Of a DNA stretch of 64,000 nucleotides, positions 11,286 to 29,561 are shown piece by piece. The translations under genes and the position numbers were made by a program. Origin of the DNA: Geobacter sp. SVR (lineage in GTDB: Bacteria; Desulfobacterota; Desulfuromonadia; Geobacterales; Pseudopelobacteraceae). How positions within the stretch are numbered: position 1 is the stretch's first letter; each line of letters begins with the position of its first letter. The notes below the pieces were generated by a model, which was given only the letters and a program-made list of their open reading frames with translations, had not been told where the DNA came from and did not search any database. Location: assembly GCF_016865365.1 (NCBI RefSeq), contig NZ_AP024469.1, positions 4,556,501-4,620,500 on the forward strand, in the 5' to 3' direction.

Positions 11286-13108
11286 TGGACACCTATCGCA
11301 TTTCCGACTACATCGCCGATTTTGTGGCAGATCTCGGGGTCAGCCACGTCTTTTTATTGCCAGGCGGCGGAGCCATGCATCTGGTGGATGCAATGGGGAA
11401 ATGCCCCCGCCTCACGGCCGTCCCCTGCTTGCATGAACAGGCCTGCGCCATTGCCGCCGAGGCCTATTCCCGCATCAACGAGCACATTGGCGTAGCGGTC
11501 GTGACAACCGGCCCTGGCGCAACCAATGCCATCACCGGTGTTGCGGGCGCATGGATCGAATCCGTGCCGATGCTGGTGATCTCGGGACAGGTCAAGCGGT
11601 CCGACATGCTGGATGGTGCTCCTCTCCGCCAGAAAGGTGTGCAAGAGGTCGACATCATCAGCATGGTCAGGCCCATCACCAAGTACGCCGTCACCATCCG
11701 GCATCCTGAAGATATCCGCAGGGAGCTGGAAACGGCGGTGCATTGCGCGACCACCGGGAGAAAGGGGCCGGTCTGGATTGATGTGCCCCTGGATATCCAG
11801 GGGGCGCCGGTTGTGCCGACGACCCTGCCTAAGTGTGCAGAACCGTTGCCGAAAGCGCCCTTCTCCCCCACCGGTGAGATCATCGACAAGACCCTTTCAT
11901 TGCTCGCCCGGGCGGAGCGGCCGCTCATTCTGGCCGGTCACGGCATCCGGCTTGCCGGCGCTGCCGGGCAGTTCCGGGAACTGGTCGAGAGACTGGGAGT
12001 TCCGGTCGTAACCACCTGGAATGCCCTTGACCTCCTCCCTTACGATCATCCCCTGCTGGTGGGGAGGCCCGGCGTTGTCGCCTTACGCGCACCGAACTTT
12101 GCGGTACAGAATTGTGATCTGCTGCTCTCCATCGGCAGCCGGCTTGACAACATCATTACCGCATACAATCCCCGGGGGTTTGCCCGCGCCGCTAAAAAGA
12201 TCGTGGTAGATGCGGACATTCACGAGATTCAAAAGCTGGACATGAATGTGGAGTTGCCGATCGTGGCAGATGCAGCCATCTTTCTCCGTGAGCTCGACGC
12301 CCAAACGGCCGGCCACTCCTCGCTTGCCGTCTCTGACTGGCGTGACCGCTGCAAGGGCTGGAAACTGCGCTATGGAATCGAGGAAGAGGTGAGCTTTGCC
12401 GCGGAAGGGGAAATCACCCATTTCCAGGCCATGGATGCCTTGTCCGAAGCCATCCCGGCAGACACTCTGGTCAGCACCGGCAGTTCCGGCTTGGCGGTGG
12501 AGGTCTTCTACACCATCTTCCGCAATAAACCGGGGCAGCGGGTTTTTCTTACCTCCGGGCTCGGTTCGATGGGGTACGGCCTGCCGGCCGCCATCGGCGC
12601 CTGCTTTGCCAACGGTTGCCGGCCCATGGTCGCCATAGAAAGCGACGGCAGCCTCCAACTCAACATTCAGGAGCTGGCCACCCTGCGGGCCTTTAATCTC
12701 CCTATCTGCCTGATCGTCCTGAACAATGCCGGCTATGCCTCCATCCGCAACACCATGCGCAACTACTTTGACGGCCGCTACGTCGGCACCGGCCCCGAGG
12801 CCGGTCTGTGGCTGCCCGACCTTGAAGCGCTGGCCCGAACCTACGACATTCCCTTCCGTCGCATCAGCGATGCAGCGGAACTGGGCGCGCTGCACGAACT
12901 GATGGCCCTGCCCCGCCCGCTGCTGATTGACCTGCGACTTGTCTCCAACGAGGTCCTGGCGCCCAAGGTCGCCGCCCTGCCGCAGCCTGACGGTTCCATG
13001 CTCTCCATGCCGCTGGAGGATATGAGCCCGCTGCTGTCGCTCGACGTGCTCACGTCCGAGATGCTCATCCCCCTGAGCGAAGCCTCGTTGCGCTGTTCCC
13101 GCCGATGA
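11282..13108 (+). CDS. Thiamine-diphosphate-dependent enzyme, acetolactate synthase-like
   Basis: A 608-aa ThDP enzyme with the three domains of the acetohydroxyacid synthase family. HEQACAIAAEAY holds the cofactor-activating Glu52; the central domain has APNFAVQNCDLLLSIGSRL; the ThDP/Mg motif is ESDGSLQLNIQEL ending in LNN (about 453-482), with SDG where GDG is usual. In Yersinia, YerE of this superfamily transfers an acetyl unit from pyruvate to C4 of the CDP-3,6-dideoxy-4-ketohexose made by the RfbFGH route. The same gene company here makes a YerE-like carboligation plausible. Simple acetolactate synthase is less likely, given no ilvN/ilvC neighbours. It overlaps both neighbours by four bases. 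Confidence 0.85.
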   Translation: MMDTYRISDYIADFVADLGVSHVFLLPGGGAMHLVDAMGKCPRLTAVPCLHEQACAIAAEAYSRINEHIGVAVVTTGPGATNAITGVAGAWIESVPMLVISGQVKRSDMLDGAPLRQKGVQEVDIISMVRPITKYAVTIRHPEDIRRELETAVHCATTGRKGPVWIDVPLDIQGAPVVPTTLPKCAEPLPKAPFSPTGEIIDKTLSLLARAERPLILAGHGIRLAGAAGQFRELVERLGVPVVTTWNALDLLPYDHPLLVGRPGVVALRAPNFAVQNCDLLLSIGSRLDNIITAYNPRGFARAAKKIVVDADIHEIQKLDMNVELPIVADAAIFLRELDAQTAGHSSLAVSDWRDRCKGWKLRYGIEEEVSFAAEGEITHFQAMDALSEAIPADTLVSTGSSGLAVEVFYTIFRNKPGQRVFLTSGLGSMGYGLPAAIGACFANGCRPMVAIESDGSLQLNIQELATLRAFNLPICLIVLNNAGYASIRNTMRNYFDGRYVGTGPEAGLWLPDLEALARTYDIPFRRISDAAELGALHELMALPRPLLIDLRLVSNEVLAPKVAALPQPDGSMLSMPLEDMSPLLSLDVLTSEMLIPLSEASLRCSRR

Positions 13109-13791
13109 TGCACTCCGGCTCCCCATATCAAGCGGTAATCTTCGATCTGGACGGCACCCTGATCGACTCTTCCCCCAGCATTCTGAAATGCTTTGGCCGG
13201 ACGCTTGCCGCGGCAGGATTGCAGCCACTGGTTCCGCTCAGCGATTCGCTCATCGGCCCACCGCTGCGTCAAACATTGATAAACCTGACGGGATTGGCCG
13301 ACACTGCCCACCTGGACCGGCTGGTTGACGATTTCAAGCAATGCTACGATACGGAAGGCTACAAAGCGACGCGAGTGTATGACGGCATCGGGGAATTGCT
13401 CTCGCAGATGCACGCACTCCATATCCCCCTGGCTATCGCCACCAACAAGCGCCGCATCCCGACCATGAAGATTCTCGAACATCTCGGTTGGCGCGACTAC
13501 TTCCATATTGTGGGCACCCTCGATACGCCCACTCCTCCTCACGCAAATAAAGCTACGCTTATTAGCTACTTGCTAAAGGAACTGGGGGTTTATGCCGAAA
13601 AGTCGTTGTATGTGGGAGACAAATGGGAGGACGGCGAGGCCGCTGCTGCCAACGGCATGCGTTTCTGTGCCGCAGGATGGGGGTATGGGGCGTGGGATAG
13701 GGATAGAATGCCGCAGGACTGGCTCTTCATCCCCGATGCCGGGGAATTGGGGTGTAGATCAAGCACCCTGACGGTAGCACAGAGGGATTGA
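13105..13791 (+). CDS. HAD-superfamily phosphatase (Gph-like)
   Basis: A 228-aa haloacid dehalogenase-type hydrolase. Motif I is FDLDGTLIDS near the N-terminus (nucleophile and acid aspartates), motif II is IATNKR, motif III lysine is in HANKATLI, and motif IV is YVGDKWEDGEAA. The helical cap sits between motifs I and II, as in phosphoglycolate phosphatase. It begins inside the ThDP gene stop codon, so it is the last gene of the coupled CDP-sugar set. The likely role is to remove a phosphate from a sugar-phosphate intermediate, such as a NeuB-type product; the substrate is inferred only from context. Confidence 0.85.
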   Translation: MMHSGSPYQAVIFDLDGTLIDSSPSILKCFGRTLAAAGLQPLVPLSDSLIGPPLRQTLINLTGLADTAHLDRLVDDFKQCYDTEGYKATRVYDGIGELLSQMHALHIPLAIATNKRRIPTMKILEHLGWRDYFHIVGTLDTPTPPHANKATLISYLLKELGVYAEKSLYVGDKWEDGEAAAANGMRFCAAGWGYGAWDRDRMPQDWLFIPDAGELGCRSSTLTVAQRD

Positions 13792-13835: not shown

Positions 13836-14921
13836 ATGCCTGATACGCAGTTGAACCCCCAGGAAACAAACAACAGGAATAAGCTCAAGGCCGAGAAACC
13901 GTATGTCTATGAGAAGATCATCAGGTTCGACGAGAAATACAGGCGGGGCGAAAGCATCGCCATTATCCAGTTTCAATACAACTATACCTGTAACTTCACC
14001 TGCGAACACTGCTCGATCAAACGCTTCCAGGGCAAGGAAGACAAGCGTTCCTTCACCATTCCGGATGTCAGGGAACTCTTCCGCCAAGCCGATGAACTGG
14101 GCTTGGCACGGGTCACCATCACCGGCGGAGAGCCCTTGGTATTCAAGGACTTTGACGATCTGGTCGCCGCTATCGACCCGCAGAAATTCTATATCAATTG
14201 CGATACAAACGGCTGGCTGCTGGATGACAGCCGCGCACGGCATCTGAAGGAAATCGGCGTCGACCGGATTCAGTTGAGCATCGACAGCCTCAATGCCGAG
14301 GAGCACGACAGATTCCGCCAGGTAAAAGGTTCCTTTGACCGGGCCATCAAATCAATTGATTCCGCCATTGGAGCGGGATTGGCCATTTTCGTCCAAACGG
14401 TTGTTACCAAGCAGCGGCTGCACTCAAAAGAATTTCTGGAGTTTCTCGAATATTTCAATGGCAGGGGGATCGGTGTGTTTGTTACCTATGCCAAGCCGGT
14501 TGGAGCCTGGGAGGGGAACTTCGATTCGATGGTCGACCGTGCTGACATGGAGTACATGAAAGAACTGGAAAAAAAACACAACGTTTTTACGCACCTGACT
14601 CCGGCCTACGGGCTTGACATGGGATGCATCGCCGTCAAGGGGATGTTCTCGGTCACCCAGTACGGCGATGTCCTGCCATGCCCCTATATTCATGCATCCA
14701 TAGGCAACGTTTTTAAAGAGCCGTTAAAAGATATCCTAAAGCGGGGTATGAGTATCAAATACTTCGGGGAACACGTAGACACATGCATGATTGCCGAAGA
14801 CCGCGAGTTCATAGATAAATATGTCGTGAACCGAATTTATGGCAAACCACTACCTGTATCCTGCTCAGAGGTTTTTAACGACGAGGATGAAACAATCAAA
14901 CCATTCCACCAGGAGATATAG
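13836..14921 (+). CDS. Radical SAM/SPASM-type enzyme
   Basis: A 361-aa protein with the radical SAM cluster motif CNFTCEHC (Cys52, Cys56, Cys59) followed by TITGGEPLVF, the SAM-binding GGEP loop. The C-terminal part (GCIAVKGMFSVTQYGDVLPC, from about residue 268, then a later Cys) resembles a SPASM-type auxiliary cluster region. An AAAGGAG site lies about 10 bases before the ATG. It opens a run of four radical SAM genes mixed with glycan genes. Substrate unknown: a sugar, a nucleotide sugar or a peptide side chain are all possible. Confidence 0.85.
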   Translation: MPDTQLNPQETNNRNKLKAEKPYVYEKIIRFDEKYRRGESIAIIQFQYNYTCNFTCEHCSIKRFQGKEDKRSFTIPDVRELFRQADELGLARVTITGGEPLVFKDFDDLVAAIDPQKFYINCDTNGWLLDDSRARHLKEIGVDRIQLSIDSLNAEEHDRFRQVKGSFDRAIKSIDSAIGAGLAIFVQTVVTKQRLHSKEFLEFLEYFNGRGIGVFVTYAKPVGAWEGNFDSMVDRADMEYMKELEKKHNVFTHLTPAYGLDMGCIAVKGMFSVTQYGDVLPCPYIHASIGNVFKEPLKDILKRGMSIKYFGEHVDTCMIAEDREFIDKYVVNRIYGKPLPVSCSEVFNDEDETIKPFHQEI

Positions 14922-14923
14922 GA

Positions 14924-16573
14924 TTGGATACTATTCTCTTCATAGTGCCACCCAATATCAGTTTTAACAGTTTCATGCATCCGGCCGCGAATGAACGGGT
15001 GGTAGCTAAAAAATCAGGGAATTATGGTAGCATCGTTAACGAGATACCGATCGGATTGCTTGCCCTCAGTGCCTTCATAAAAGAAAAAATAGAGGTTCGA
15101 GCGAAGCTTATCGATTTCAATATCATTATTAACAAGTTAGATGAATTCGTCTGGGATTCCTTCGCCTCATTATTCCATGAGGTTCTCTCCTCCAAAGAAG
15201 TAACTGATTTTGCGCCAACTCTCATAGGAATTTCCGCACTGTTTACACCTTCATATCAAAGCATGCTGGACATCGCCCAATGCAGCAAAGAACTGTATCC
15301 GCACGCTCTTGTTGTTGCGGGTGGCGGCGTACCGACGAATATGTACGATGCCATTTTCAAAGACAGTCCATACTTCGATGCATTATGCTACGGCGAAGGC
15401 GAATTGCCGATGCTGGGACTGTTGCAGTCAGATGACAGGCACCGATACCTGGGTGAGAGCCCATCATGGATCACACGGGAAAAGGTGGCAGCTACTAGTA
15501 AGTTCACCCTTGATCTTATTGAAGATATTGACGATATACCGTTTCTTGATTTCGGTCTCCTCCGGATAGATGATTATATATCGAACTCCATCAATGCGCT
15601 CTTTCCCCTCGCGCAGAAGCAATTGAAGAATATCGGATACATGACTTCCAGGGGATGTGTGCACAGATGCTGTTTCTGCTCGTCGCATACCGTGCATGGC
15701 AGAAAAATGCGTTACCATAGTGTGCAAAGGGTGCAGGCCGAGCTTGAACACCTGAAAAATACCTACGGAATCGGAAATATTATCTTCTACGATGATCACT
15801 TCATGGCAGACAAGCAACGTGTTCTGAATATCATCGAGATCATGAAGTCGCAGAGTCTGACAGCCTTTTTTCCGAACTCGCTGGCTCTGTATGCTCTTGA
15901 CAAAAATATCCTTGAGGCGCTCAAGGGCATTGGCGTCGATCACCTTGTACTGTCTGTTGAATCCGGCAGTGGTCGTGTCTTGAAGGAGATCATGCACAAG
16001 CCGCTCAACCCCGCCATCATAAAACGGGTAGTCGATGATTGCCGCGATCTCGGCATCGCCACGGATCTCTCCATCCTGATCGGACTTCCAGGAGAGACGA
16101 AACAGGATATTGAAGATGCGAGAATATTTTTGCGGTCACTCATGCCGAACTGGTTCAGAATCAGCATTGCAACGCCATTGGCAGGAAGTGAAATGCTGGA
16201 TATATGTCTCAAAAATGATTATCTACGGGGAGATTACCTCAGTTGTGACTTTAAAAAGGCCATCATTGAAACCGATGATTTTACCCCTGAATATATCGTC
16301 GAAAAGGCCTACGAACTGAATCTTGAGCTCAATTTTGTCGCTAACAGCGATTTCAGGCTGGGTCAATACTCTGTCGCGCTAAAAGGATTTGAAAACACTA
16401 TCCGCGTAAAAAACGACCACGCCCTTGCCCATTATTATGCCGCGCAATGTTGCAAGCAGCTTCATATGGATAGCGAATATCAGAATCATAGAGAAATATA
16501 TTATCAGATAATTAGTGCATCGGAATACTGGGCCAGCTACGTTCACCACTTCAAGTTGGCAGATTTGGAGTGA
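14924..16573 (+). CDS. B12-binding-type radical SAM enzyme with TPR-like tail
   Basis: A 549-aa protein. Residues 1-170 have a Rossmann-like cobalamin-binding layout (IGISALFTPS, VVAGGGVPTN, CYGEGELPM) but no obvious DxHxxG cobalamin-ligand motif. The radical SAM core has TSRGCVHRCCFC (Cys245, Cys249, Cys252). The last 90 residues read as TPR-like helices (LGQYSVALKGFENTIRVKND). The start is a TTG at 14924 with AGGAG at 14911-14915, inside the end of the previous gene. Such proteins methylate or rearrange unactivated carbons; the target here is unknown. Confidence 0.85.
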   Translation: MDTILFIVPPNISFNSFMHPAANERVVAKKSGNYGSIVNEIPIGLLALSAFIKEKIEVRAKLIDFNIIINKLDEFVWDSFASLFHEVLSSKEVTDFAPTLIGISALFTPSYQSMLDIAQCSKELYPHALVVAGGGVPTNMYDAIFKDSPYFDALCYGEGELPMLGLLQSDDRHRYLGESPSWITREKVAATSKFTLDLIEDIDDIPFLDFGLLRIDDYISNSINALFPLAQKQLKNIGYMTSRGCVHRCCFCSSHTVHGRKMRYHSVQRVQAELEHLKNTYGIGNIIFYDDHFMADKQRVLNIIEIMKSQSLTAFFPNSLALYALDKNILEALKGIGVDHLVLSVESGSGRVLKEIMHKPLNPAIIKRVVDDCRDLGIATDLSILIGLPGETKQDIEDARIFLRSLMPNWFRISIATPLAGSEMLDICLKNDYLRGDYLSCDFKKAIIETDDFTPEYIVEKAYELNLELNFVANSDFRLGQYSVALKGFENTIRVKNDHALAHYYAAQCCKQLHMDSEYQNHREIYYQIISASEYWASYVHHFKLADLE

Positions 16574-16583
16574 TCTGAATCCA

Positions 16584-17078
16584 ATGAACCTTTTCCAGGC
16601 ACTCGAGTGTCTCGAACAGCATATACCAGCCCCCTCAGAGGGCTTGCCCGACGACGTCTTCTACTTCATCAGCAGGATGACACCGCTCGTGAATGTGGAT
16701 TTGCTGCTCAAGGATGAACAGGGACGGACCTTGCTCGCATGGCGTGACGACCCGTATGCAGGACAGGGATGGCACATACCGGGCGGGATCGTCAGATTCA
16801 AGGAAACCTTCGCGGAGAGAATCTGTAAAGTGGCCCAATCGGAGCTGGGATGCACCATTGAATTCGACCCCGAGCCAGTTGCCATTAATCAGCTTATTCA
16901 CAAGGAGCGAGATACCAGAGGGCATTTCATATCCCTGCTCTACCGGTGCCGCATCCCTGCCGCTTATATCCCGCAGAACGCACAATACCTGCCCGGTGAG
17001 CGCGGCTACCTCCAGTGGCATGATACCTGCCCTGACAATCTGATCGTGTACCACGAGATATATCGGGATTACATCTAA
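16584..17078 (+). CDS. Nudix hydrolase, GDP-mannose mannosyl hydrolase-like
   Basis: A 164-aa Nudix protein. The box begins WHIPGGIVRFKETFAER and continues to SELGC, the altered Nudix box of GDP-mannose mannosyl hydrolases rather than the standard G-x5-E-x7-RE-x2-EE form. Those enzymes cleave GDP-hexoses and often sit in capsule and O-antigen clusters. The start at 16584 is preferred over an upstream in-frame codon at 16515, which overlaps the radical SAM gene. The stop shares one base with the next ATG. It may hydrolyse a nucleotide sugar made here or control its level; which sugar is not known. Confidence 0.8.
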   Translation: MNLFQALECLEQHIPAPSEGLPDDVFYFISRMTPLVNVDLLLKDEQGRTLLAWRDDPYAGQGWHIPGGIVRFKETFAERICKVAQSELGCTIEFDPEPVAINQLIHKERDTRGHFISLLYRCRIPAAYIPQNAQYLPGERGYLQWHDTCPDNLIVYHEIYRDYI

Positions 17079-18127
17079 TGGAAACTGTTCCGGCCAGAGC
17101 TAAGATCATCAGCGGTACAGCTCCGGGGGGAGTGCGAACCAGACTTGCCGATGCCCTCCCCCTGGACACTCCGTTCGTTGTGCAGATATTCCCGGTCTAT
17201 GCCTGCAACTTCAAGTGCGGCTACTGCATCTTTCCGGTGCCGGCTGAAAAGCGCGGTTTCATATCAGACCGGACAGTCATGGATTCCGGACTCTTTGCCC
17301 GCTGCATGGAGGATCTCACCAGGTTCCCCCGAAAGGTCAAGGTGCTGCGCTTCGTCGGGATCGGCGAGCCGCTGCTCCACCGAGACATTGCAGACATGGT
17401 GCGTTGCGCCGTTTCAAACGACATAGCCGACGTTATTGAAATCCTCACCAATGGCGCCCTACTCACCCCGGCCATGTCCGACGCGCTCATCGCCGCAGGC
17501 CTTACAAGACTGGTGGTGTCTCTCCAAGGCACCTCCCGGAAAAAGTACCGTCAGGTGTGCGGGACCGATATCGATTTCGAGCAGTTCCGCGCCAACCTGA
17601 AGTATTTCCATGACCACAAAGGCAGTGCGCAGATGTATGTCAAGATAATCGACTGCGCCCTGGACGGAGAAGATGACCGGCAGCGGTTCTACGACCTGTT
17701 CGGCGACCGATGCGATACCATGGCCATCGAACATGCCGTTCCCATCCATTCTGGCGTCGATTACGACCATCTGCCGGGAGTCAAGGAACAGGAAGTCACC
17801 CAATTCGGCCTGCCGGTGTCGAACGTCAAAGTATGTCCGCAACCCTTCTTCACCATGCAGATCAACCCGGATGGCAAGGTTGTTCCCTGTTATTCGTTTG
17901 AGTATCCCGGCATCATGGGTGATTGCAATACCAATTCGGTTTGCGATATCTGGAACGGTGAAACCTTTCGGAAGTTCCGACGCAAGATGCTGGAAGGTAT
18001 CAACGGGGCGGGTGAACCGTGTGAAACTTGCAGTATTATCAAGTACAGATTGTTTCCCGAAGATGATTTGAAAGATTCCGTGGAAAAATTAAAACCGTTC
18101 TACGATCCTTATACAGGTGAGAAATGA
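17078..18127 (+). CDS. Radical SAM/SPASM enzyme
   Basis: A 349-aa protein with CNFKCGYC (Cys43, Cys47, Cys50) and RFVGIGEPLLH as the SAM-binding loop. The C-terminal domain has the SPASM arrangement of cysteines (VCPQPFFTMQINPDGKVVPC, then GDC, then EPCETC), expected to bind auxiliary [4Fe-4S] clusters. It overlaps the Nudix stop by one base and the next methyltransferase start by an ATGA. It is only distantly similar to the radical SAM protein at 13836, so the two are probably not a recent duplication. The reaction is unknown. Confidence 0.87.
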   Translation: METVPARAKIISGTAPGGVRTRLADALPLDTPFVVQIFPVYACNFKCGYCIFPVPAEKRGFISDRTVMDSGLFARCMEDLTRFPRKVKVLRFVGIGEPLLHRDIADMVRCAVSNDIADVIEILTNGALLTPAMSDALIAAGLTRLVVSLQGTSRKKYRQVCGTDIDFEQFRANLKYFHDHKGSAQMYVKIIDCALDGEDDRQRFYDLFGDRCDTMAIEHAVPIHSGVDYDHLPGVKEQEVTQFGLPVSNVKVCPQPFFTMQINPDGKVVPCYSFEYPGIMGDCNTNSVCDIWNGETFRKFRRKMLEGINGAGEPCETCSIIKYRLFPEDDLKDSVEKLKPFYDPYTGEK

Positions 18128-19293
18128 CCCGATTCTGCCCGATTTGTTTCAGCAGATATTCCAGGCATATGTTTACGCAACGTTTCGGTAAGAACAGCGC
18201 CATTTCTGTCATGGAGTCTTATGATGTTGTCGTCTGCTGCACGTGTGGGTTTGTATATGCCGATAACATTCCGTCACAGGAAGAGTTCAGCGCCTACTAT
18301 GCTCTGATGTCCAAGTATGAATTCGAGTACAAGGATGGCATTGTCGCACAGGACTACATGACGCAATATGCGAAGATCGTCGACTTCATTATTCCACACG
18401 TGGGTACTAGGGAGGCGAGAATACTCGATATCGGCTGTTCGACTGGCGCCCTGCTGTCCATCTTTGAGAAGAGAGGCTACCATCATCTGTTGGGGTTGGA
18501 TCCATCACCAAACTGTACGCACGTGGCGGAAAAAATTTATGGTATTCGCGCGATTACGGGAGATATTTCGTCCCTCAATGACGTGGGGAAATTCGATGCC
18601 ATCATATTGTCTGCCGTGCTTGAACATCTCGTGGATTTCGAGTATTCCATGAACAAAATCAAAGCGCTCCTATCCGACGGGGGGTTACTGTTTATAGAAG
18701 TTCCCGATGCGGAGAGATTTCATGAATTCATCTTTGCACCATTTCAACAATTCAGCGTTGAACATATTAACTATTTTTCCAGAACCTCCATATTGAATTT
18801 ATTGTCTGCCTACTCTTTCAAGATACTGGAAATGAAACAGAATGAAAGTAGTCTTAATTTAACTGTAGATCCAGACCTATTCGTTTTATCGGTAAAAACA
18901 GCTATTCCAGAAGAGCCTGAGATCGTTCCCGATGTAGTAAGCGAACCGACGCTCCTCAAATATATCCATGATTGTAGCGGGATTGATCAGAAAATACGAA
19001 CTATTATTAGTGAGAAGCTACTAGAACTTGATAGATTTATTGTCTGGGGAGCGGGCACGCATACACAACGACTTATAGGCGCAGGCCTGGATACTTCAAA
19101 AATATTATATATAGTTGATTCGAACAAAAGATATGCGGGCAAGAAACTTGATCACATCGACATCAGACTGCCGCAAGAAATTTCCGATGATGTCCCAATC
19201 CTGATATCAACATATTCATACCAGTCAGAGATAATGAACATGATCAGAAATAACCTGCGTCTCAGTAATGAAATAGTGGCATTATATGAATAG
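18124..19293 (+). CDS. Zinc-finger class I methyltransferase with C-terminal Rossmann-like domain
   Basis: A 389-aa protein in three parts. Residues 1-45 hold a CPIC ... CCTCGF zinc-ribbon pattern. Residues about 85-240 are a SAM methyltransferase (RILDIGCSTGALLS, FDAIILSAVLEHL). The last ~90 residues begin FIVWGAGTHTQRLI and form a small Rossmann-like domain. This layout recalls sugar C-methyltransferases of the TylC3/NovU type, which act on nucleotide-linked 4-ketosugars. The same C-terminal domain appears at the end of the radical SAM protein at 22364. The DNA becomes visibly AT-rich within this gene. It starts in an ATGA overlap. Confidence 0.82.
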   Translation: MTRFCPICFSRYSRHMFTQRFGKNSAISVMESYDVVVCCTCGFVYADNIPSQEEFSAYYALMSKYEFEYKDGIVAQDYMTQYAKIVDFIIPHVGTREARILDIGCSTGALLSIFEKRGYHHLLGLDPSPNCTHVAEKIYGIRAITGDISSLNDVGKFDAIILSAVLEHLVDFEYSMNKIKALLSDGGLLFIEVPDAERFHEFIFAPFQQFSVEHINYFSRTSILNLLSAYSFKILEMKQNESSLNLTVDPDLFVLSVKTAIPEEPEIVPDVVSEPTLLKYIHDCSGIDQKIRTIISEKLLELDRFIVWGAGTHTQRLIGAGLDTSKILYIVDSNKRYAGKKLDHIDIRLPQEISDDVPILISTYSYQSEIMNMIRNNLRLSNEIVALYE

Positions 19294-19302
19294 GTTACCT
19301 AT

Positions 19303-20358
19303 ATGAGAGATTACATGAGAACCGTAAAGCCTTTGGTTAGCATTATGATTCCCAATAGGAACCACTCAAAATTTCTGGGAACATGTATCGAAAGTGCCTT
19401 GAATCAAACATACCCGAACTTGGAAATAGTTGTTCTCGACAATTGCTCCGATGACAACTCTTTGAAAGTCGCTTCAAGATATGTCAACAGAGGTGTGAGA
19501 GTCTGTAAGAACCCTATAAATATTGGAAATAAGAACTTTAATCTGTTGACAGTGCTCACAGAAGGCGAATACATGATTCTGCTGTGCGCCGATGATGTGA
19601 TACAGCCGACTTTTATCGAAAAAAGTGTAGCTATCATGGAACAAAACCCTAACGTAGGATATGTCCATTGTGAGAGAGATTATATTGATGGAGATGATGT
19701 CATCACCGAACTTGATCCCTTCTACAACTGTAATTTTATCTGTCCTGGTGAATCAGTACTGCCCATATACATGCTTACTGATGTCGCGCAGCCATCGCAA
19801 TGCGTCATACGGAGAAGTATATTCCAGAAAGTTCTTGGCTATAATACGGAATTCGATCACAGCAATGCGGATAAGGCGTTGTGGTTTAGACTTTCGCTTG
19901 TCTCTGATTATGCATATATTCGGGAAAAATTAGCTCTTATTAGAGTCCACAGTGCACGAGAAACTGTGATCGCATTCAGAAGTTTTTATCATTCAATAGC
20001 ACTCTATCTGACACTAATGAATCAGGTAGAACTTGGTGGACAACTAAAAGGACATCGTAATGTGTATGAGAAACTTCCCGCCGCCTTTAGAAAGCTTGCT
20101 GATGAAACATTGCAAATTGCTCTATTTTGTATCCATGAAGACAATTTAAAACTAGCTAAACAGTATTTAGTTTTTGCAAAAATAATGGATAATTCAATCG
20201 TCGAAAGTGAAAATTATATCTTAATAAGTAATATTTATGACAGCTTACAATGTAAAAACGATTCTGAAAAAGAAAAAATAGAACTTTCAATGTTTGGAAA
20301 GCGTACTAGAAATTACGAACCACCAGAGAATTATATCAAAATTGAGATAAAACCATGA
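19303..20358 (+). CDS. GT2 glycosyltransferase
   Basis: A 351-aa GT-A family 2 transferase. SIMIPNRNHSKFLGTCIESA and LDNCSDDNS are the N-terminal motifs, and LLCADDVIQP is an intact DxD-like metal site near residue 95. The C-terminal 100 residues are helical (LKLAKQYLVFAKIMDNSIVE). The gene is AT-rich and its codon use differs from the GC-rich genes upstream. Starts at 19303 or 19315 are both possible. It is a paralogue of the next gene. Donor and acceptor are unknown. Confidence 0.82.
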   Translation: MRDYMRTVKPLVSIMIPNRNHSKFLGTCIESALNQTYPNLEIVVLDNCSDDNSLKVASRYVNRGVRVCKNPINIGNKNFNLLTVLTEGEYMILLCADDVIQPTFIEKSVAIMEQNPNVGYVHCERDYIDGDDVITELDPFYNCNFICPGESVLPIYMLTDVAQPSQCVIRRSIFQKVLGYNTEFDHSNADKALWFRLSLVSDYAYIREKLALIRVHSARETVIAFRSFYHSIALYLTLMNQVELGGQLKGHRNVYEKLPAAFRKLADETLQIALFCIHEDNLKLAKQYLVFAKIMDNSIVESENYILISNIYDSLQCKNDSEKEKIELSMFGKRTRNYEPPENYIKIEIKP

Positions 20359-21416
20359 CACTTGATAATTTTAATATTATAGTGCTAATACCAACAGAAG
20401 ATTGCATCAATTACATTGATGCAAGCATTAATAGTGTTCTTATTCAGACTTACAATAGGAATAATATAAAAATTGTTGCTATTGATAATTGTTCAACGGA
20501 TGGCACTTATGAAAAATTGTTGAATTATTCGATTAATCACGGAATATCTGTCTATAGGTTAAAAGAAAAATGTTCCCGAGCAATGTTACTGTATGAATCA
20601 ATTTCGTATATAGAGCCTGTCAATTATAAATATATTACCGTTTTATCCCCTGGTGATATATTTTATTCTAATTTTATAGAAGATTCTGTTAAAGTTATGG
20701 AAAAATATTCAAACGCAAAGAGGAGAATGCTCATTTGCGAGGTTAGTATTATCGACAGCAATGCCAGAATATCGTCACAATTACCGATTTTTACTGACAG
20801 CTGTATTCTAAAAAGTAGCTGGAGTTTATTACAATTTTTTACATTCGGTTTTGATCATAGAGTGCAGTGGATTTGCCTTAAAGATACTCTTCCGTCTGAT
20901 TTAGCAGATTTAGTATTCTGCGTCGACAACACAGATTGGTTCAACAAGGCATTATTCTCATTTAATTCAGAAATTATCTATCTAGATAAACCGCTTGCGT
21001 CTGCCGTATTATCGTATCCCGATGACAGATTATATAAACTAATGTTAAAGCTGTCTCTGGTAACAAGATTTAAGTTGATACGCGGAACTATGGATAACAA
21101 AAATTTTGAAGACTTAGATGAGCTTGAAGATCAAAAACTATCTAATTATAAATTATCATTATTAGCACTTAAATACGCTTATGATGATTTAATCGAAATT
21201 AAAATAGATTCTGCACGTAAAATTTTACTATTTGCAGAAATGGTCTTCTCTGATATAGTCGAAACTGAGTTGTATTCAACTATTTGCAATTTAATAGAAA
21301 AACCAGAGTATTGTTCGGTAGTGCTGGATCAGCATTTTGATTTTTTATTAAGGCCATCAAACCCACCAACTAATTCAATTTCAATGAATTTGATAGCAAC
21401 TGATATCCAGGTATGA
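20355..21416 (+). CDS. Divergent GT2-like protein, DxD degenerate
   Basis: A 353-aa paralogue of the preceding transferase: ALNQTYPNLEIVVLDNCSDD there corresponds to LIQTYNRNNIKIVAIDNCST here, and SARKILLFAEMVFSDIVETE matches the helical tail of the neighbour. The motif that is CADDVI in the neighbour is SPGDIF here, so the first metal-binding aspartate is lost. It may be catalytically weak, use another residue, or act as a partner subunit. The DNA is the most AT-rich coding stretch of the window. ATGA overlaps join it to the genes on both sides. Confidence 0.72.
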   Translation: MTLDNFNIIVLIPTEDCINYIDASINSVLIQTYNRNNIKIVAIDNCSTDGTYEKLLNYSINHGISVYRLKEKCSRAMLLYESISYIEPVNYKYITVLSPGDIFYSNFIEDSVKVMEKYSNAKRRMLICEVSIIDSNARISSQLPIFTDSCILKSSWSLLQFFTFGFDHRVQWICLKDTLPSDLADLVFCVDNTDWFNKALFSFNSEIIYLDKPLASAVLSYPDDRLYKLMLKLSLVTRFKLIRGTMDNKNFEDLDELEDQKLSNYKLSLLALKYAYDDLIEIKIDSARKILLFAEMVFSDIVETELYSTICNLIEKPEYCSVVLDQHFDFLLRPSNPPTNSISMNLIATDIQV

Positions 21417-22363
21417 GCACAGTAAATATTACAATATTAGGCGCGTGTTCCCATATTGCAAAAGGTCTTATATATAATTTAAAGCCATCGGCAAAATCCA
21501 AACTCCATCTTTACACAACATCTCCACAACAATCCTACATCTTTGCCCACGACATTTGTAGATTGCCAGAACATGCTTATTCTATCAATGAGGGATATCA
21601 TAGCTTCATGTCGAAAAAACATGATGTAATTATAAATTGCATTGGTGTTGGCACTCAGAGAAAAATACGCGGTGATTATACTAAATATTTCATTGTAGGT
21701 GAAAAATTTGACAACATGATTATTGAATACCTACAAAATTATTCACCAGAGACGTTATATATAAATATTAGTAGCGGTGCCGTATATGGCCGTTCATTTA
21801 CAGGGCCAGTGTCAGAATGGAGTGAAAATGCTCTCACCGTGAATCATATAATGCAAGAAGATTATTATTCTATTTGCAAATTGAATTCAGAAGCGAAACA
21901 CCGCGCCTTTAGTCATTTAAAAATAGTTGATCTAAGATTGTTTTCATATTTCAGTAGATTCGCAGATATATCAGATGGATATTTTATTACCGATATCATT
22001 GACAGTATAAAAAGCAATAAAAAGCTTAAGACAAATACCACTAATATTATTAGAGATTATGTACATCCGGTAGATCTGTGTTCAATTGTTCATATATGTA
22101 TCCAAATAAATAATATAAACGATGCATATGATGTAATGAGTACAAAACCTGTAAACAAAACGGAAATATTAGACTATTTTTCAAAAAATTATGGCCTAAA
22201 ATATTCAATAGATAGTTCTATTGTTGAACAGACTCCGACAGGGGTGAAGGATATATATTATTCTAAATACTTTAAAATTGCAAAAATAGGCTATATCCCG
22301 TCGTATAGTTCTCTGGACACTGTGATACAAGAAGCAAGTTATTTATTAGAGGATAAAAAGTAA
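21413..22363 (+). CDS. NAD-dependent epimerase/dehydratase-like SDR
   Basis: A 316-aa protein of the extended short-chain dehydrogenase type. The N-terminal ITILGACSHIAKGL is an altered glycine motif, INISSGAVYGRSF is the catalytic serine strand, and YYSICKLNSEAKHR gives the YxxxK pair. YVHPVDLCSIV in the C-terminal half is typical of sugar epimerases and reductases. It could reduce or epimerise a nucleotide-linked ketosugar; its distance from rfbH means a link to that pathway is only a guess. AT-rich, and coupled by an ATGA overlap to the gene before it. Confidence 0.8.
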   Translation: MSTVNITILGACSHIAKGLIYNLKPSAKSKLHLYTTSPQQSYIFAHDICRLPEHAYSINEGYHSFMSKKHDVIINCIGVGTQRKIRGDYTKYFIVGEKFDNMIIEYLQNYSPETLYINISSGAVYGRSFTGPVSEWSENALTVNHIMQEDYYSICKLNSEAKHRAFSHLKIVDLRLFSYFSRFADISDGYFITDIIDSIKSNKKLKTNTTNIIRDYVHPVDLCSIVHICIQINNINDAYDVMSTKPVNKTEILDYFSKNYGLKYSIDSSIVEQTPTGVKDIYYSKYFKIAKIGYIPSYSSLDTVIQEASYLLEDKK

Positions 22364-24154
22364 ATGAATTTGCTGTTTGTCCAACCAAAAGCTCGCGATA
22401 TTGCTGGTATTGCAACTGGTATCTGTTATGTTGCTACAGCCACTAAAGAGGCTGGATACAACATATTCGGGGTGAATCTTAATTACTTTAGTTCATCAGG
22501 GTATCGAGACATACTTGCAAGTGCTATCAATACGAATAACATCGATGTGGTATTTATTGGTGGTACTTCCGGTGATTTTAACGAAATTAAAAGAATAATC
22601 TCAATTTTGAAAGGCCTTAATAATGAGTTGGTTTTAGTACTTGGTGGCTATTTAGTTTCGACAGAGCCAGAATTAGTTATTAGAAATACAGGCGCTGATT
22701 TTGGGGTAATTGGACTGGGCGAAACAGCGTCTGTAGAATTGTTAAATCTGTTGAGTCAAAAATGCGCTAAATCATCGTATTCCACGATTTCTGGATTGGT
22801 TTATATTGATGATAATAATGATCTTGTAATAACGTCTAACAGAAAGGCATGCTCATTCAATTTTAATAGGATACCGGCTCTTGACCTTTTATTTGATGAT
22901 TATATAAGAAACAATAAGCACATTGACCTTGTAGGAAGTATTGGTTGCCCGTTCAGTTGTACCTTTTGTTCACGTCCTGTTGGAACAAAAAAGTACGATC
23001 AACGCCCTTTGGATTCTCTTTTTTATGAATTAGATTATTGGCTAACTGTCTATGATATAAAAACTATTGGTATTAATGACGAATTGTTTTCGTTGGATGA
23101 AGAGCGCGTTCGTGAATTTTGCTCTCGTATTCGAAAATATCAAATCGGTTTTGGACTTCAAGGTAGAGTAGATACTATTACTGAAGAAATACTTACCATG
23201 CTTAAAGATGCGGGATGCTATTCTATCAGTTATGGTCTTGAAAGTGCTAATAATTCAATTCTGGCAAGTATGAAAAAGGGGATTACAATAGAACAAATTG
23301 AAAAGGCACTGTCTGCAACACGTCAACATGGAATATCCATTATTGGGAACTTCATTTTTGGAGATATTCAAGAAACTTATGAAACAGCAAACGACACCTT
23401 GAATTGGTGGACTAACCACATGTCAGAGTATGACATACATTTAACCATGATCGTGCCATTTCCGGGCTCATATATCTATGATTATGCTGTGCAGAAGGGG
23501 ATGATATCAGATAAGCTTAAATTTCTAAATGATGGCTGCCCTCCGGTAAACTGTTCAAAGATGTCAGAAAGCGAGATATTACGGTTAAAGCGAAGAATAA
23601 ACAGCTTATTACAAATTAAATCCAGGGCATCAACTATATCAATAAAATATATCCATCCAGACAATACCATTGATCTAACGTTGGAGTGCGGGCACTGTTT
23701 TAAAAAGTTTAACGTATTTAAAAAAGATCTGGCAAATGACTCACGATGGTCGTTCGACCGCTGTCCCTCATGCGGTGGACATAACTCCCTTTCCCCCACT
23801 GATATATTCAAACCTTCCTTGTACAAACAAGTGCTTGACCATATGTCCGAACAATATTTCAAAACATTTCAGATGAAAAATAAGAAAATTGTAATGTGGG
23901 GCGCTAAAGAACGTGGTCAACTTTTGATTGCTTCATCGGAAAATTTGCGGAAATGCCTTGTTAAAGTAGTTGATAGTGCCCATGAAGAATATCACGACAA
24001 ACTACTGCTCGGTATTATTAGAGTTGATCCACCTGAAACACTTAAAGATCTGGATTTTGATTATTTAATAATAGCTTCTACCAACTATAGGGACGAGATT
24101 AAATCTATCATTAGAGATAAATTCCAATTAAATATTGAAATATTAGACATTTAA
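22364..24154 (+). CDS. B12-binding-type radical SAM enzyme with zinc ribbon and Rossmann-like tail
   Basis: A 596-aa protein. Residues 1-150 have the cobalamin-domain layout (VFIGGTSGDFNEI, VLGGYLVSTEPE, GVIGLGETASVELL). The radical SAM core has GCPFSCTFC (Cys195, Cys199, Cys202). After it come a four-cysteine zinc ribbon (CGHC ... CPSC, roughly 440-480) and a final domain beginning IVMWGAKERGQLLI, which matches the tail of the methyltransferase at 18124. Such a tail on a radical SAM protein is unusual. The gene is AT-rich and begins directly after the SDR stop. The substrate is probably a glycan or nucleotide sugar, by context only. Confidence 0.84.
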   Translation: MNLLFVQPKARDIAGIATGICYVATATKEAGYNIFGVNLNYFSSSGYRDILASAINTNNIDVVFIGGTSGDFNEIKRIISILKGLNNELVLVLGGYLVSTEPELVIRNTGADFGVIGLGETASVELLNLLSQKCAKSSYSTISGLVYIDDNNDLVITSNRKACSFNFNRIPALDLLFDDYIRNNKHIDLVGSIGCPFSCTFCSRPVGTKKYDQRPLDSLFYELDYWLTVYDIKTIGINDELFSLDEERVREFCSRIRKYQIGFGLQGRVDTITEEILTMLKDAGCYSISYGLESANNSILASMKKGITIEQIEKALSATRQHGISIIGNFIFGDIQETYETANDTLNWWTNHMSEYDIHLTMIVPFPGSYIYDYAVQKGMISDKLKFLNDGCPPVNCSKMSESEILRLKRRINSLLQIKSRASTISIKYIHPDNTIDLTLECGHCFKKFNVFKKDLANDSRWSFDRCPSCGGHNSLSPTDIFKPSLYKQVLDHMSEQYFKTFQMKNKKIVMWGAKERGQLLIASSENLRKCLVKVVDSAHEEYHDKLLLGIIRVDPPETLKDLDFDYLIIASTNYRDEIKSIIRDKFQLNIEILDI

Positions 24155-24203: not shown

Positions 24204-27200
24204 ATGAGATATGTGATTATAGCACCTACTTATAACGAGCGATCAGCTGGAATAAGAGTACTTCAGGAACTCCAGAAGTGGCTTATTCGATTTGGTAAAG
24301 AGGCAATTATTCCAAACATCGACGTAAATGCACCTTATCGTATTGAAGATGACGATATCGTTGTATACCCGGAAATCATTAAGGGTAATCCTCTCAAGGC
24401 GAAAAGGGTCGTCAGATATATTCTTAATGATCCTGGCAAATTAGGTGGTGACAGAGAATACGATAGAAATGAAATTTTGTTCGCCTACGATGGTGAGCTC
24501 AGTCGTTATTGCAAGAGCTCGAATAATGTGCTGCGTCTACCATGCACAGAAGATTTTTTTACCAACACTGGTAGGTCGCGCGCAGTTGATTGCTTTTGGA
24601 TCGGCAAAGGCCGGTTCACTCCACATCCAGCTATCAGAAACGCCCTCGAGATAAGCTATACATGGCCGGCAAAACGTAAGGAGCTCGCTGAACTCCTGAA
24701 TCGGACAAAAACGTTTTATACGTATGACGACCGTACGGCCCTCACACTAGAGGCTTCTCTCTGTGGTTGCGAGATCAAGGAAATAAGGAATGGCGAAATA
24801 ATCGACATCCGCCCAATGCTTTCCGTTGACCAAGAAAGTCTTAATATTCAACTTAACAACTTCATTCAGATGACCTGGTATCCGGAAATGGATGCCGACG
24901 CCAAGGCAACCGAATACATCGAGTCGATAGTTTCGAACCACACCACCGAGCTTGCCACCAAAGATCTGACCTCAATCATCATCCTCACCTGGAACCAGTT
25001 GCACTGCACCCGGGAGTGTCTGGCGTCCATCGCGGCGCATACGCTCGAACCATACGAACTCATCGTCGTAGATAACGGCTCCACTGACGGCACCGTGGCG
25101 TGGTTGCACGAGCAGACGTGCCGGGATGATCGTATCCGGCTCATCGAGAACCCATCCAACCACGGTTTCGCCGCCGGCTGCAACCAGGGGTTGTCAGTTG
25201 CCCGGGGCAATTATCTGGTGCTGCTGAACAACGACGTAGTGGTCACGCCCGAATGGCTTTCCGGATTGCTGGAGTGCCACCGACTGGATCCCTTTGCCGG
25301 GATTGTGGGACCAATGACCAATAACGCCAGCGGCATCCAGGGGCTGGGCAACCCAATATACGACCCCGGCGGTCTTGACGGCTTCGCCCGCCAGTTCCGT
25401 GACCGCAACCGGCATCGCCGCGTCGCCAGCCGACGACTGGTGGGGTTCTGCATGCTGCTCACCCGGCAGTTGTATGTCGAAATCGGCGGGCTGGACGAGC
25501 GGTTCGGCAGCGGGAACTTCGAAGACGATGATTTCTGTCTGCGAGCTGCCATTGTCGGTCGCCGCAACATGATCGCTGCTGACGTCTACGTGCACCACTA
25601 TGGAGGGGCTTCCTTCGCCGCTGGCGGTATCGATTACCGTGCTGCTATTGGCGGCAACTGGGCCTTGTTCCGTGACAAATGGAGCGCTCCCGTGGCTATG
25701 CCTGCAGAGGCGGAACTGATTGCACGCTGCCGTCTCAGGGAGGAACTGGAACGGCTGATCATGGAGGAACGCCCTGTTGAAGCGCTGCAGCGGCTGGCCC
25801 AGGCGGGAGGGGTGATGGAGCGCGACCCGCTGGTTACGGAACTGCGGGCCCAGGCCCTCTGGTCCATGGGACGTGAGCAGGAGGCAGCCTCGCTGCTTGG
25901 AAGTGACAGTACGTTCCAGTCCATTTTAGAGGGTCGACTCGCTCTGGAGTCGGGCGATCTGGAAACAGCCGGTATCCAGTTTCAGACCGCCCGTTCCCGC
26001 CTTCCGGGGTGTGGTCTCCCGTATCTCCATCTTGCGCTCTTGGCCCGGCAGCAAGGAGAAATGGGCCGCGCCGTGGCCCTGCTGTTGAAGGGGATTAATC
26101 TCTCGCCAACCATGCCCGGATACGAACCGCTACTGGACACGCTCATTGCAACGGACCAGTGTGGCGAATTGGTGCGCATCCTTAAGGAAGCGGCACATCT
26201 CTATCCGGACAGTCGCCAGGTCGGCCGCCTGCTGGTTGCGTGGGCGAATCGGGCAGGACAGTGCGAGGAGGTCGTGGCCGCTGCAGAACGCTTCTGCATA
26301 CGTTTCGGACCTGATGAACAGGTACTTGCATTCGGCTTGTCAGCTCGCCGTCGTCTGGGTGAATACCGTTCAGCTGCTCCTCAGGGAAGGCGGATATCGC
26401 TCTGTATGATCGTCAGAGACGAGGAACTGCATATCGCACGCTGCCTGACCTCCTGCCGGCCGCTGGTACATGAGATGGTCGTAGTGGATACCGGCTCCAA
26501 TGACAGAACTCCCGAGCTGGCGGAATTGCTGGGGGCACGCCTGATCCGCCATCAGTGGCGGGATGACTTCTCCGAGGCGCGCAATGCCTCCTTGGAAGCC
26601 GCCACTGGCGACTGGCTTCTGGTAATGGATGGAGACGAGGCTCTTTCACCGCGGGATTATTCCGCTTTCCAGAAAGCCCTGGAAGGAGCTGCCTGTCCTG
26701 CCGCCTTCACCATCCTCACCCGTAACTACACCAATGTGGCCACACTTGATGGCTTCACCCCGCTGGATAGCTCCTATCCTGAGGAGGAGGCAGGCTCCGG
26801 TTGGACCCCCAGCGTCAAGGTCCGTCTCTTTCCCAATCATTGCGGGATTCATTTTGAGGGAGTAGTACACGAAATGGTGGAAGGGACGATCGCCCAAGCC
26901 GGCTTGCCTCTACGAGAGCACCCGGTACCGATCCACCACTATGGAGGGTTGGAGAACCAGCGCCTGAACCGTAAGCGGACTCTCTACTATACCTTGGGGC
27001 AACAAAAATTACAGGTGGGAAACCGGGACCCGAAAGCCCTATACGAACTGGCGGTCCAGGCGGCTGAGCTTGAACGCTTTATCGAGGCGGAGGAGTTGTG
27101 GCTGACCTTGCTGGAGCAGGAGCCAGAATTTTCCGTTGCCTGGTTCAACCTCGGCTACATCTATCTGAAAATAAACCGTCTGAGGGAGGCCATGGCAGCT

Positions 27201-28676: not shown

Positions 28677-29498
28677 TTAGAACAGTCTCAGAACTGCCTG
28701 GGCAGCCTGGGAGGCCATGCTCAGAGAGGAGATGCCCAGATTCTGACGGGTCTGCAGCATCAGCATGTTGGCACCTTCCTGGTTCATATCGGCCAGTGTC
28801 AGGTTGTCCGCACCAGTGGTCAGTGTGCTGATCATGGAATCGGTGAAGTCCTGACGGGTGGTAACAACGCTCAGGTTGGAGGAAAGCGCTGCAGACTGAG
28901 TACGCAGTGTGCTGAGGGCCGATTCAAGCTGGCCACTGGCGGTGCTGATCTGAGCGGTGCTGGTCCAGTCCGTGGAGCTGACGGTGCCCAGCGAGAGACC
29001 GGATGAGGTAGCGTCGAAACCGGTTACCTGCAGGGTAGCGGCGTTGGTACGCTGACCGAATTCAACGGTCTGAGAGCCGTTGGTCAGGAAGTTGGTCCCT
29101 TTGTAGCCGGAATCACTGGCCAGCTGGGAGATCTGCGACAACAGGGTCGAGTAGGTGGCAGAGTAGGCGGAACGCTCGACCGTGTCGGCGGTGCCCAGTG
29201 CGGCGGCAGCAACACCTTGTGCAGACTGGATCAGGGAGGTGATGCCTTTGATGCCGGCGGTGGCTGCGCTCAGCATCTGGACAGCCTCGGACATGCCGTC
29301 TTTGCGGGTGTCGAGATCGTTGGCGCGTGCAACGGCGTTCTGGGCGGCAAAATAGTTGGTCGGATTGTCCAACGGGGTGTTGACCTTTTTGCCTGTGGAA
29401 AGACGATTTTGCGTCGTGGTGATGCCCTTTGATGTCTGGGACAGGGAGAGCAGGTTGTTTCTCATACCTGCCGTAAGGGAGATGTCGCTGAGTGCCAT
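28677..29498 (-). CDS. fliC: Flagellin
   Basis: The filament subunit, exported by the flagellar type III apparatus. The 273 aa hold only the conserved D0/D1 ends: MALSDISLTAGMRNNLLSLS and RLSTGKKVNTPLDNPTNYFA at the N-terminus, and NMLMLQTRQNLGISSLSMAS followed by QAVLRLF at the C-terminus. The usual variable D2/D3 domain is nearly absent. The Ser/Thr-rich centre (about 150-215) would be the surface-exposed region available for O-glycosylation. The ATG at 29498 follows an AAAGGAG; a 15-codon upstream extension is not supported. The ALSDISLT start resembles flagellins that occur with FlaF/FlbT. The promoter is a near-consensus sigma-28 site. Confidence 0.95.
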   Translation of the reverse strand: MALSDISLTAGMRNNLLSLSQTSKGITTTQNRLSTGKKVNTPLDNPTNYFAAQNAVARANDLDTRKDGMSEAVQMLSAATAGIKGITSLIQSAQGVAAAALGTADTVERSAYSATYSTLLSQISQLASDSGYKGTNFLTNGSQTVEFGQRTNAATLQVTGFDATSSGLSLGTVSSTDWTSTAQISTASGQLESALSTLRTQSAALSSNLSVVTTRQDFTDSMISTLTTGADNLTLADMNQEGANMLMLQTRQNLGISSLSMASQAAQAVLRLF

Positions 29499-29543: not shown

Positions 29544-29561
29544 TTTGTATTGTTACTATCT

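Follow-up and report, generated by a model that had tools for sequence, protein, structure and literature searches.

The stretch of DNA analysed here (the window, 64,000 nucleotides of Geobacter sp. SVR) lies entirely within the single 4.72 Mb contig of this genome and contains a run of plus-strand genes extending from position 66 to 27533, within which a sugar pathway begins at 6531 and leads into four genes for radical S-adenosylmethionine (rSAM) enzymes (Table 1; genes are referred to by family name or by start coordinate). A sequence-only reading had placed these four enzymes in a glycosylation island at 13836-24154, borders that are too narrow and truncate the run. Much of its description of the genes holds: all four rSAM proteins score above the Radical_SAM cut-off and contain the CxxxCxxC motif, the SPASM domains of 13836 and 17078 and the B12-type domains of 14924 and 22364 pass their Pfam cut-offs, and the Nudix, short-chain dehydrogenase/reductase (SDR) and glycosyltransferase genes (two GT2) that it reported between them have Pfam matches. 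It also mentioned methyltransferases, of which Pfam shows one as a stand-alone gene within these borders (18124), with a below-cut-off match in the tail of 22364. Genes overlap by 4 nt at RfbH/NeuB, NeuB/YerE and YerE/HAD, and again at 17078/18124, 19303/20355 and 20355/21413. There are 64 Radical_SAM matches in the genome; 10.3 kb is expected by chance to hold 0.14 of them, and the probability of four or more is 1.4e-5, a value valid for one preset stretch and uncorrected for how the stretch was chosen. Four more rSAM genes are grouped at 2.773-2.780 Mb of the genome, and three B12-binding matches fall within this group.

Table 1. Features of the window, with the family or structure matches on which their names rest.
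Feature	Position	Strand	Support
RfbF, glucose-1-phosphate cytidylyltransferase	6531..7307	+	NCBIfam TIGR02623 393 bits, cut-off 300
RfbG, cytidine diphosphate (CDP)-glucose 4,6-dehydratase	7301..8398	+	TIGR02622 485 bits, cut-off 278
RfbH, CDP-6-deoxy-4-hexulose 3-dehydrase (E1)	8413..9780	+	NF011936 730 bits, cut-off 423
NeuB-type phosphoenolpyruvate (PEP)-condensing synthase fused to cupin	9777..11285	+	PF03102 7e-38; Cupin_2; Lyx_isomer barely above cut-off
YerE/JanthE-like thiamine diphosphate (ThDP) carboligase	11282..13108	+	best PDB match 8rph, 405 bits vs 277 for next
HAD phosphatase	13105..13791	+	PF13419 6e-30
rSAM/SPASM enzyme, putative 3-Cys auxiliary site, survey anchor	13836..14921	+	Radical_SAM 91 bits; SPASM 25.1 vs cut-off 21.5
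B12-domain rSAM with helical, tetratricopeptide repeat (TPR)-like tail, AprD4-like fold	14924..16573	+	Radical_SAM 74; B12-binding 48.9 vs cut-off 32.1
Nudix protein, GDP-mannose mannosyl hydrolase-like	16515..17078	+	PF00293 24 vs cut-off 21.1
rSAM, BtrN-like 4-Cys twitch/SPASM	17078..18127	+	Radical_SAM 62 bits; SPASM 54.3
Methyltransferase	18124..19293	+	PF13489 2e-23
GT2 glycosyltransferase	19303..20358	+	PF00535
GT2 glycosyltransferase, AT-rich (GC 0.311)	20355..21416	+	PF00535
SDR	21413..22363	+	PF01370
B12-domain rSAM with paired CxxC and Rossmann-like tail	22364..24154	+	Radical_SAM 62; B12-binding 53.8
GT2 and TPR glycosyltransferase, candidate flagellin glycosyltransferase	24204..27533	+	two GT2 stretches, TPR
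Flagellin	28677..29543	-	Flagellin_N; NF009330 190 bits (below cut-off 614); FlgL model 33 bits
Two GT41 (OGT/SPINDLY-type) TPR glycosyltransferases	29525-31564, 31561-33246	+	PF13844

The RfbF, RfbG and RfbH families have an established role in converting glucose-1-phosphate to CDP-4-keto-3,6-dideoxyglucose (the RfbG start given here was picked within the longest open reading frame, ORF). The NeuB-cupin protein matches the solved structure 3g8r (8e-132), and its cupin part matches 2y0o and 7nzo, the solved cupin relatives being D-lyxose isomerases; residues H205, E226 and H228, which we take to be catalytic, are kept in 54 of 54 aligned rows, and we propose this enzyme as the maker of a 2-keto acid donor. 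Against the PDB, the 11282 product scores 405 bits with JanthE, 277 with 5ahk (titled acetolactate synthase II, presumably PpYerE) and at most 244 with plant and bacterial acetohydroxyacid synthases, and its nearest NCBIfam model is acetolactate synthase, at 351 bits and far under the cut-off of 538. The ThDP motif reads GDG in 54 of 57 aligned rows (56 relatives and the window) and SDG in three, including the window. By these scores the protein is nearer the YerE-like enzymes than the acetolactate synthases. It adjoins the genes for CDP-4-keto-3,6-dideoxyglucose, and we propose it as the C-branching step, with the adjacent HAD protein (13105) a candidate to dephosphorylate the NeuB product.

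JanthE (8rph) is described as a YerE-like enzyme in the available part of PMC12188165. According to the accessible portion of PMC12247030, YerE and ErwE attach units derived from 2-keto acids to CDP-4-keto-3,6-dideoxyglucose, ErwE favouring longer hydroxylated donors, and yersiniose, erwiniose and caryophyllose are known branched sugars of this kind. Their pathways share RfbFGH and a YerE-like enzyme with the window, whereas a NeuB-cupin gene beside YerE and the proposed rSAM tailoring set the window apart, neither being mentioned in that portion of PMC12247030. The suggestion in the sequence-only reading that the carbon skeleton is altered is likely to be right, although the best evidence for it is the YerE-like carboligase and the PEP-condensing NeuB upstream rather than the rSAM genes; a non-standard skeleton would likely arise mainly through ThDP and PEP chemistry. 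Its further statement goes too far in placing such changes beyond ordinary sugar chemistry, because these three sugars are already known.

Named genome contigs were scanned with an alignment of three 13836 sequences, yielding 196 pattern matches and 108 relatives, of which the best 80 (with 13836 relatives at 60-80% identity) were kept. The neighbourhoods extend to at most 10 kb and many contigs are shorter, so the counts are lower bounds; a neighbour was counted at 25% identity across half of the window protein, and the ORF caller missed 13836 itself in 3 of the 80 loci. Among these best 80 of 108, YerE is present in 57, NeuB-cupin in 53, Nudix in 43, RfbH in 42, RfbF in 34 and RfbG in 33, followed by 14924 (23), SDR 21413 (22), 17078 (20), 18124-like (16), 22364-like (10) and HAD 13105-like genes (5). 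A second type of C-methyltransferase occurs in 42 loci, and one type or the other in 56. The locus titles carry more than 20 phylum-level names, nearly all of them for metagenome bins, some of whose labels may be wrong; no bin label is attached to Marinitoga lauensis or to two strains of Lachnospiraceae (L108, L111). The window order 13836-14924-Nudix-17078-18124 is found at 48-77% identity in four loci, two from Omnitrophica (L034, L044), one from Kiritimatiellaeota (L035) and one from Endomicrobiales (L052). The survey supports the conclusion that distant organisms also combine a sugar cassette with 13836 and, as optional members, 14924 and 17078; 22364, with relatives in so few loci, was rejected as part of the cassette core. 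Among the titles and abstract openings listed for open-licence literature on rSAM enzymes with flagellin glycosylation, O-antigen or branched sugars, and on sialic acid synthases with thiamine enzymes, no such system was seen; for aurantose and ropiose this literature led only to PMC12247030 and to a passage of PMC9133744 without a structure.

The partner of the NeuB-cupin gene bears directly on the fate of its product. YerE is also present in 49 of the 53 loci with NeuB-cupin, and within 1.5 kb in 45. A separate search of 277 genomes of the class recovered NeuB-cupin in 16. The cassette type with YerE is present in five of these (G000, G100, G123, G054, G135), one has a shorter NeuB beside a piece of YerE (G113), one has an 8.6-kb contig on which a shorter NeuB is accompanied by RfbFGH but not by YerE (G063), five lack YerE in the fetched stretch (L131-L135), three lie at a contig edge (G151, G194, G201) and one falls outside the comparison (G157). 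In four of the five loci L131-L135 (all but L132) there is a nearby cytidylyltransferase of the cytidine monophosphate (CMP)-sugar type (CTP_transf_3), a family that is common genome-wide (36 of 40 whole genomes). A NeuB tree of 64 rows (G063, G113, G157 and G194 omitted; L088 and L017 are the same gene twice) separates 57 cassette rows, of which 54 have YerE in view (partial ones included) and three do not, from seven others with support of 100/100 for each group, and the seven comprise four with the cytidylyltransferase, one without and two at contig edges. Most rows entered the tree via 13836, and the tree therefore tells NeuB's partner at such loci, not the overall frequency of pairing. 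Clusters of NeuB, HAD and CMP-sugar cytidylyltransferase have NeuB-cupin and HAD in common with the window, but the window has no CMP-sugar-type cytidylyltransferase and YerE adjoins NeuB. A family of about 197 residues (for example L033 9353-9955) was also seen at the pair, with NeuB directly upstream in 23 of its 26 members and YerE directly downstream in 23.

Because YerE stands beside NeuB in the cassette and the cytidylyltransferase goes with the other NeuB type, we infer that the 2-keto acid goes to YerE without being CMP-activated, in a handover from NeuB to YerE. An alternative is that two sugars are made, with RfbFGH and YerE forming a short pyruvate-derived branch of the yersiniose type, NeuB-cupin and HAD forming a separate nonulosonic acid, and the rSAM enzymes tailoring one of them. 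The association of NeuB-cupin relatives with a cytidylyltransferase elsewhere would fit such a scheme, as would the preference of Yersinia YerE for pyruvate and its acceptance by JanthE, both recorded in the available part of PMC12247030. Nonetheless we regard two separate sugars as unlikely: a profile of 20 CMP-sugar-type cytidylyltransferases matches no window ORF and has a single match in each of 2 of the 80 cassette loci (L052, L111), and the NeuB and YerE genes that lie so close together in the survey overlap in the window.

The two SPASM-type proteins, in both of which the SPASM part is reduced, differ in their cysteines. In 13836 the CxxxCxxC motif is kept in all or all but one of 78 rows, the extra residues C264 (78/78), C282 (78/78) and C317 (77/77) are conserved and C343 is present in 29 of 76 rows; the auxiliary cluster of MoaA is held by three Cys, to which the conserved three may correspond, and the MoaA model scores 102 bits against a cut-off of 284. 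By comparison, 17078 has four extra Cys in each of 22 rows, the window's own among them, and the spacing C253-x12-G266-x4-C271 and C315-x2-C318, kept in all 22, fits the BtrN-type twitch motif CX9-15GX4C ... CX2C, which holds one auxiliary cluster, as a predicted cluster site. BtrN oxidises a hydroxyl to a ketone, and it is the best solved match of 17078 (1e-12); BtrN, DesII and cytosylglucuronate decarboxylase share with 17078 an rSAM core and a four-Cys twitch domain, though the similarity is weak. We propose 17078 as a hydroxyl-to-ketone dehydrogenase. DesII likewise dehydrogenates a sugar nucleotide, according to the accessible part of PMC11434129.

The genes that travel with 17078 are consistent with this role. 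Relatives of 18124 at 48% identity or more follow 17078 directly in 7 of 7 loci, and among the 20 loci with a 17078 relative SDR 21413 is present in 13 and an 18124-like gene in 9. Loci with 17078 cluster on the 13836 tree (6 changes versus 17.9 when shuffled, with 0 of 500 shuffles as low; bootstrap support is unsettled), and the loci with 14924 but without 17078 (10 rows) are unclustered. The 18124 product is probably a sugar C-methyltransferase, possibly of the three-domain TcaB9 (sugar 3-C-methyltransferase) type; a Pfam scan at an expectation value of 0.01 lists neither Methyltransf_13 nor Methyltransf_14 for it. SDR 21413 is a proposed ketoreductase, and the trio may be read as oxidise, methylate, reduce.

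Many SPASM proteins act on peptides, and the rSAM enzymes could accordingly modify a peptide or other small molecule instead of a sugar. Among the solved matches of 13836 the peptide maturase SkfB (1.9e-10) does appear, ranking below MoaA (1.9e-15) and cytosylglucuronate decarboxylase, and its NCBIfam list has peptide maturases, all far under cut-off. We consider this quite improbable given the YerE linkage in 57 of the 80 loci and the presence of BtrN, cytosylglucuronate decarboxylase, DesII and AprD4 among the solved matches of the four enzymes. A role of the SPASM proteins in maturing ribosomally synthesised and post-translationally modified peptides in particular is disfavoured by the linkage to YerE and NeuB, no search having been aimed at precursor peptides.

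In both 14924 and 22364 a B12-type Rossmann domain precedes the rSAM core, as seen by Pfam above cut-off and by fold matches, an arrangement common to AprD4 and the class-1 cobalamin rSAM enzymes (OxsB, TsrM and TokK; CysS and MgmA). They differ from these in their additions: a TPR-like helical tail in 14924, and in 22364 a pair of CxxC motifs together with a Rossmann-like tail. AprD4 is a dehydratase that acts on a sugar and, to our knowledge, requires no cobalamin. It is possible, although we lean towards doubting it, that 14924 and 22364 are likewise of this type, with a Rossmann domain that binds no cobalamin and a reaction that removes a hydroxyl and adds no methyl group. AprD4 is the best match of both by sequence and also by VIA: for 14924 (model pLDDT, predicted local distance difference test, 92) the Z scores are AprD4 27.1 (root-mean-square deviation, rmsd, 3.3 over 415 residues), MgmA 25.9, CysS 24.4, OxsB 24.0, TsrM 22.9 and TokK 21.4, and for 22364 (pLDDT 80.6) they are AprD4 30.4 (rmsd 3.4 over 393 residues), MgmA 29.6, TsrM 29.2, CysS 28.8 and OxsB 28.4. 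For 22364, however, MgmA ties and TsrM, CysS and OxsB are all within 2 Z, and Foldseek puts TsrM first; 14924 aligns with TokK across the B12 domain, GEGE included; and the AprD4 family NF033070 gives 79 and 71 bits for 14924 and 22364 against a cut-off of 500.

AprD4 is a radical SAM diol dehydratase that pairs with an NADPH reductase (accessible part of PMC5461906), and an SDR gene precedes 22364. An AprD4-AprD3-like pair of 22364 and SDR 21413 was considered and rejected, the SDR occurring with 17078 (13 of 20 loci) more than with 22364 relatives (4 of 10). The available part of a 2025 review of the rSAM B12-binding domain (PMC13331322) does not mention AprD4; it reports that the residue under the cobalt differs among OxsB, TsrM and TokK (Asn, Arg and Trp), and hence no motif decides B12 use. 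Both proteins fall well short of the cut-offs set for the NCBIfam families listed, and P-methylation, the top NCBIfam name for 14924 (NF038361), was dropped at 136 bits against a cut-off of 575.

Several further features of these two proteins are recorded here. The tail of 14924 consists of model helices at about residues 455-542, also present in aligned relatives, and appears TPR-like by eye, no TPR being listed by Pfam. The paired CxxC of 22364 is zinc-ribbon-like by eye, its four late Cys being present in all 12 rows that have a residue at those positions, and its tail resembles the C-terminal domain of sugar C-methyltransferases (Methyltransf_14 19.8, cut-off 23.5). Three 22364 relatives lie within about 10 kb in L022 (G123:C1 45000-64900), two of them adjacent, and L021 contains a 1377-aa open frame (5169-9302) with a stretch 24-27% identical to B12-type rSAM proteins, possibly a fusion.

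Downstream of the rSAM genes, the flagellin gene is flanked by the GT2-TPR and GT41 glycosyltransferases, as expected of a flagellin glycosylation island. Two Flagellin_N genes are present in the genome: FlgL, which lies next to FlgK at 4.370 Mb, and the gene in the window, a better fit to flagellin models than to the FlgL model. The glycosyltransferases lie beside this sole non-FlgL flagellin gene, and the description of the locus as a flagellin glycosylation island is supported, although this does not tell which sugar is attached. Flagellin is a candidate carrier of the sugar that fits this neighbourhood. The sugar could instead be destined for a surface polysaccharide, with flagellin merely a neighbour. 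Consistent with that, ABC transporter and ABC-2 exporter membrane genes directly adjoin the cassette in L017, an ABC-ATPase-like protein (named by eye from the sequence start) occurs in three loci, and none of the 80 cassette loci showed a match to the window flagellin, which counts against a flagellin target. Island contents also differ among relatives. A surface polysaccharide is nevertheless rather unlikely in our view, since GT41/TPR glycosyltransferases lie on both sides of flagellin, no exporter, flippase or polymerase is listed among the subset of window ORFs scanned with Pfam, and a flagellin relative shares the contig of the G123 cassette and also occurs close to the related islands of G122 and G075.

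The genes of the run do not share one history. Six stretches from the organism's own order (G100, G123, G054, G135) were compared with 78 named loci (L079 and L088 omitted). RfbF, RfbG, NeuB, YerE (77% versus 47%) and HAD (68 versus 28) are nearest to the own order, and RfbH is near even (75 versus 72 outside), whereas 13836 is nearest to an Omnitrophota bin (80 versus 65 in the own order), and 17078 (66 versus 57) and 14924 (58 versus 53) are nearer to outsiders; Nudix is even (62 versus 64), and 18124 reaches 59% outside and 26% in L017. In the NeuB tree the window falls among Desulfuromonad rows (5 rows, 100/96), while in the 13836 tree it belongs to a clade of 15 mixed rows (95/89) that excludes L079 and L088 of its own family. 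GC content is 0.50-0.62 across 6531-13791, 0.46-0.54 across 13836-18127 and 0.31-0.43 across 18124-24154, making the last the sole compositional outlier; a sharp GC border at 13.8 kb was rejected on account of the range spanned by the upstream genes. Later acquisition is suggested for the tailoring half, as it is for the AT-rich end.

From the families, order, linkage and conservation of these genes we infer a donor, a product, a reaction for each rSAM enzyme and a target. RfbF, RfbG and RfbH would convert glucose-1-phosphate to CDP-4-keto-3,6-dideoxyglucose; NeuB-cupin would join PEP to an aldose or aldose phosphate to form a long 2-keto-3-deoxy acid, and HAD would strip a phosphate; and the JanthE-like ThDP enzyme would decarboxylate this acid and transfer the acyl unit to the C4 ketone, leaving a tertiary-alcohol branch of several carbons. 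In the tailoring that may follow, 17078 would oxidise a hydroxyl to a ketone like BtrN, 18124 would methylate the adjacent position and SDR 21413 would reduce the ketone again; 13836 would perform a modification that many of these cassettes share, perhaps receiving the substrate at an open site of its auxiliary cluster, and 14924 would methylate or deoxygenate the sugar. The GT2-TPR and GT41 enzymes would, to judge by their position, attach the sugar to flagellin, and 22364, which is AT-rich and more loosely associated, would act either on this sugar or on a neighbouring one. That the run 6531-22363 encodes such a CDP-linked, C-branched, higher-carbon deoxysugar, tailored by rSAM enzymes and put on flagellin, is a reading whose chances we judge to be evenly poised.

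A number of observations weigh against it. YerE occurs without NeuB in 8 of 57 loci and NeuB without YerE in view in 4 of 53, some of which may be explained by contig ends. The JanthE-like enzyme may use pyruvate, NeuB serving another sugar. Of the 49 loci with both NeuB and YerE, 26 have a HAD-type gene at the pair, and the commonest such gene, the family of about 197 residues, is called HAD from its DxDD start motif alone; one member has no Pfam or NCBIfam match and the family profile no PDB match. In L129 the remainder of the cassette is present with no 13836 in view, and since the loci were chosen via 13836 the frequency of YerE-NeuB without it cannot be deduced. The BtrN match of 17078 is weak, and so is the TcaB9 match of 18124 (3.5e-6); the best PDB match of 18124 is 3cc8 at 1.9e-9.

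Other features of the window are more peripheral. The Nudix protein scores 39 bits with NF011963 (cut-off 146), and its true start is likely the ATG near 16584. A trio of cupin, DegT aminotransferase and methyltransferase genes at 66-2349, separate from the rSAM cassette, is kept in two related genomes (L020/L032 and L023) at 84-85, 76-77 and 63-64%, and a 1742-aa TPR protein with a GT9 match and a TTG start is encoded at 45084-50312.

In its broadest form, the proposal is of a widespread and hitherto unrecognised family of sugars, in which the NeuB sugar acid, instead of being activated as a CMP-sugar, is spent as the acyl donor of a ThDP enzyme, fusing two sugars into a branched chain of about 12-14 carbons that rSAM enzymes remodel. 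The system would be shared by very distantly related bacteria and by some archaeal bins, its modules having passed from one phylum to another; this we offer tentatively, as plausible but short of an even chance. If true, a sialic-acid-type synthase and an acetolactate-synthase-type carboligase would be joined in one route to very large branched sugars, three uncharacterised groups of rSAM enzymes would gain testable roles, and the same class of sugar would be predicted on the surfaces of many uncultured lineages.

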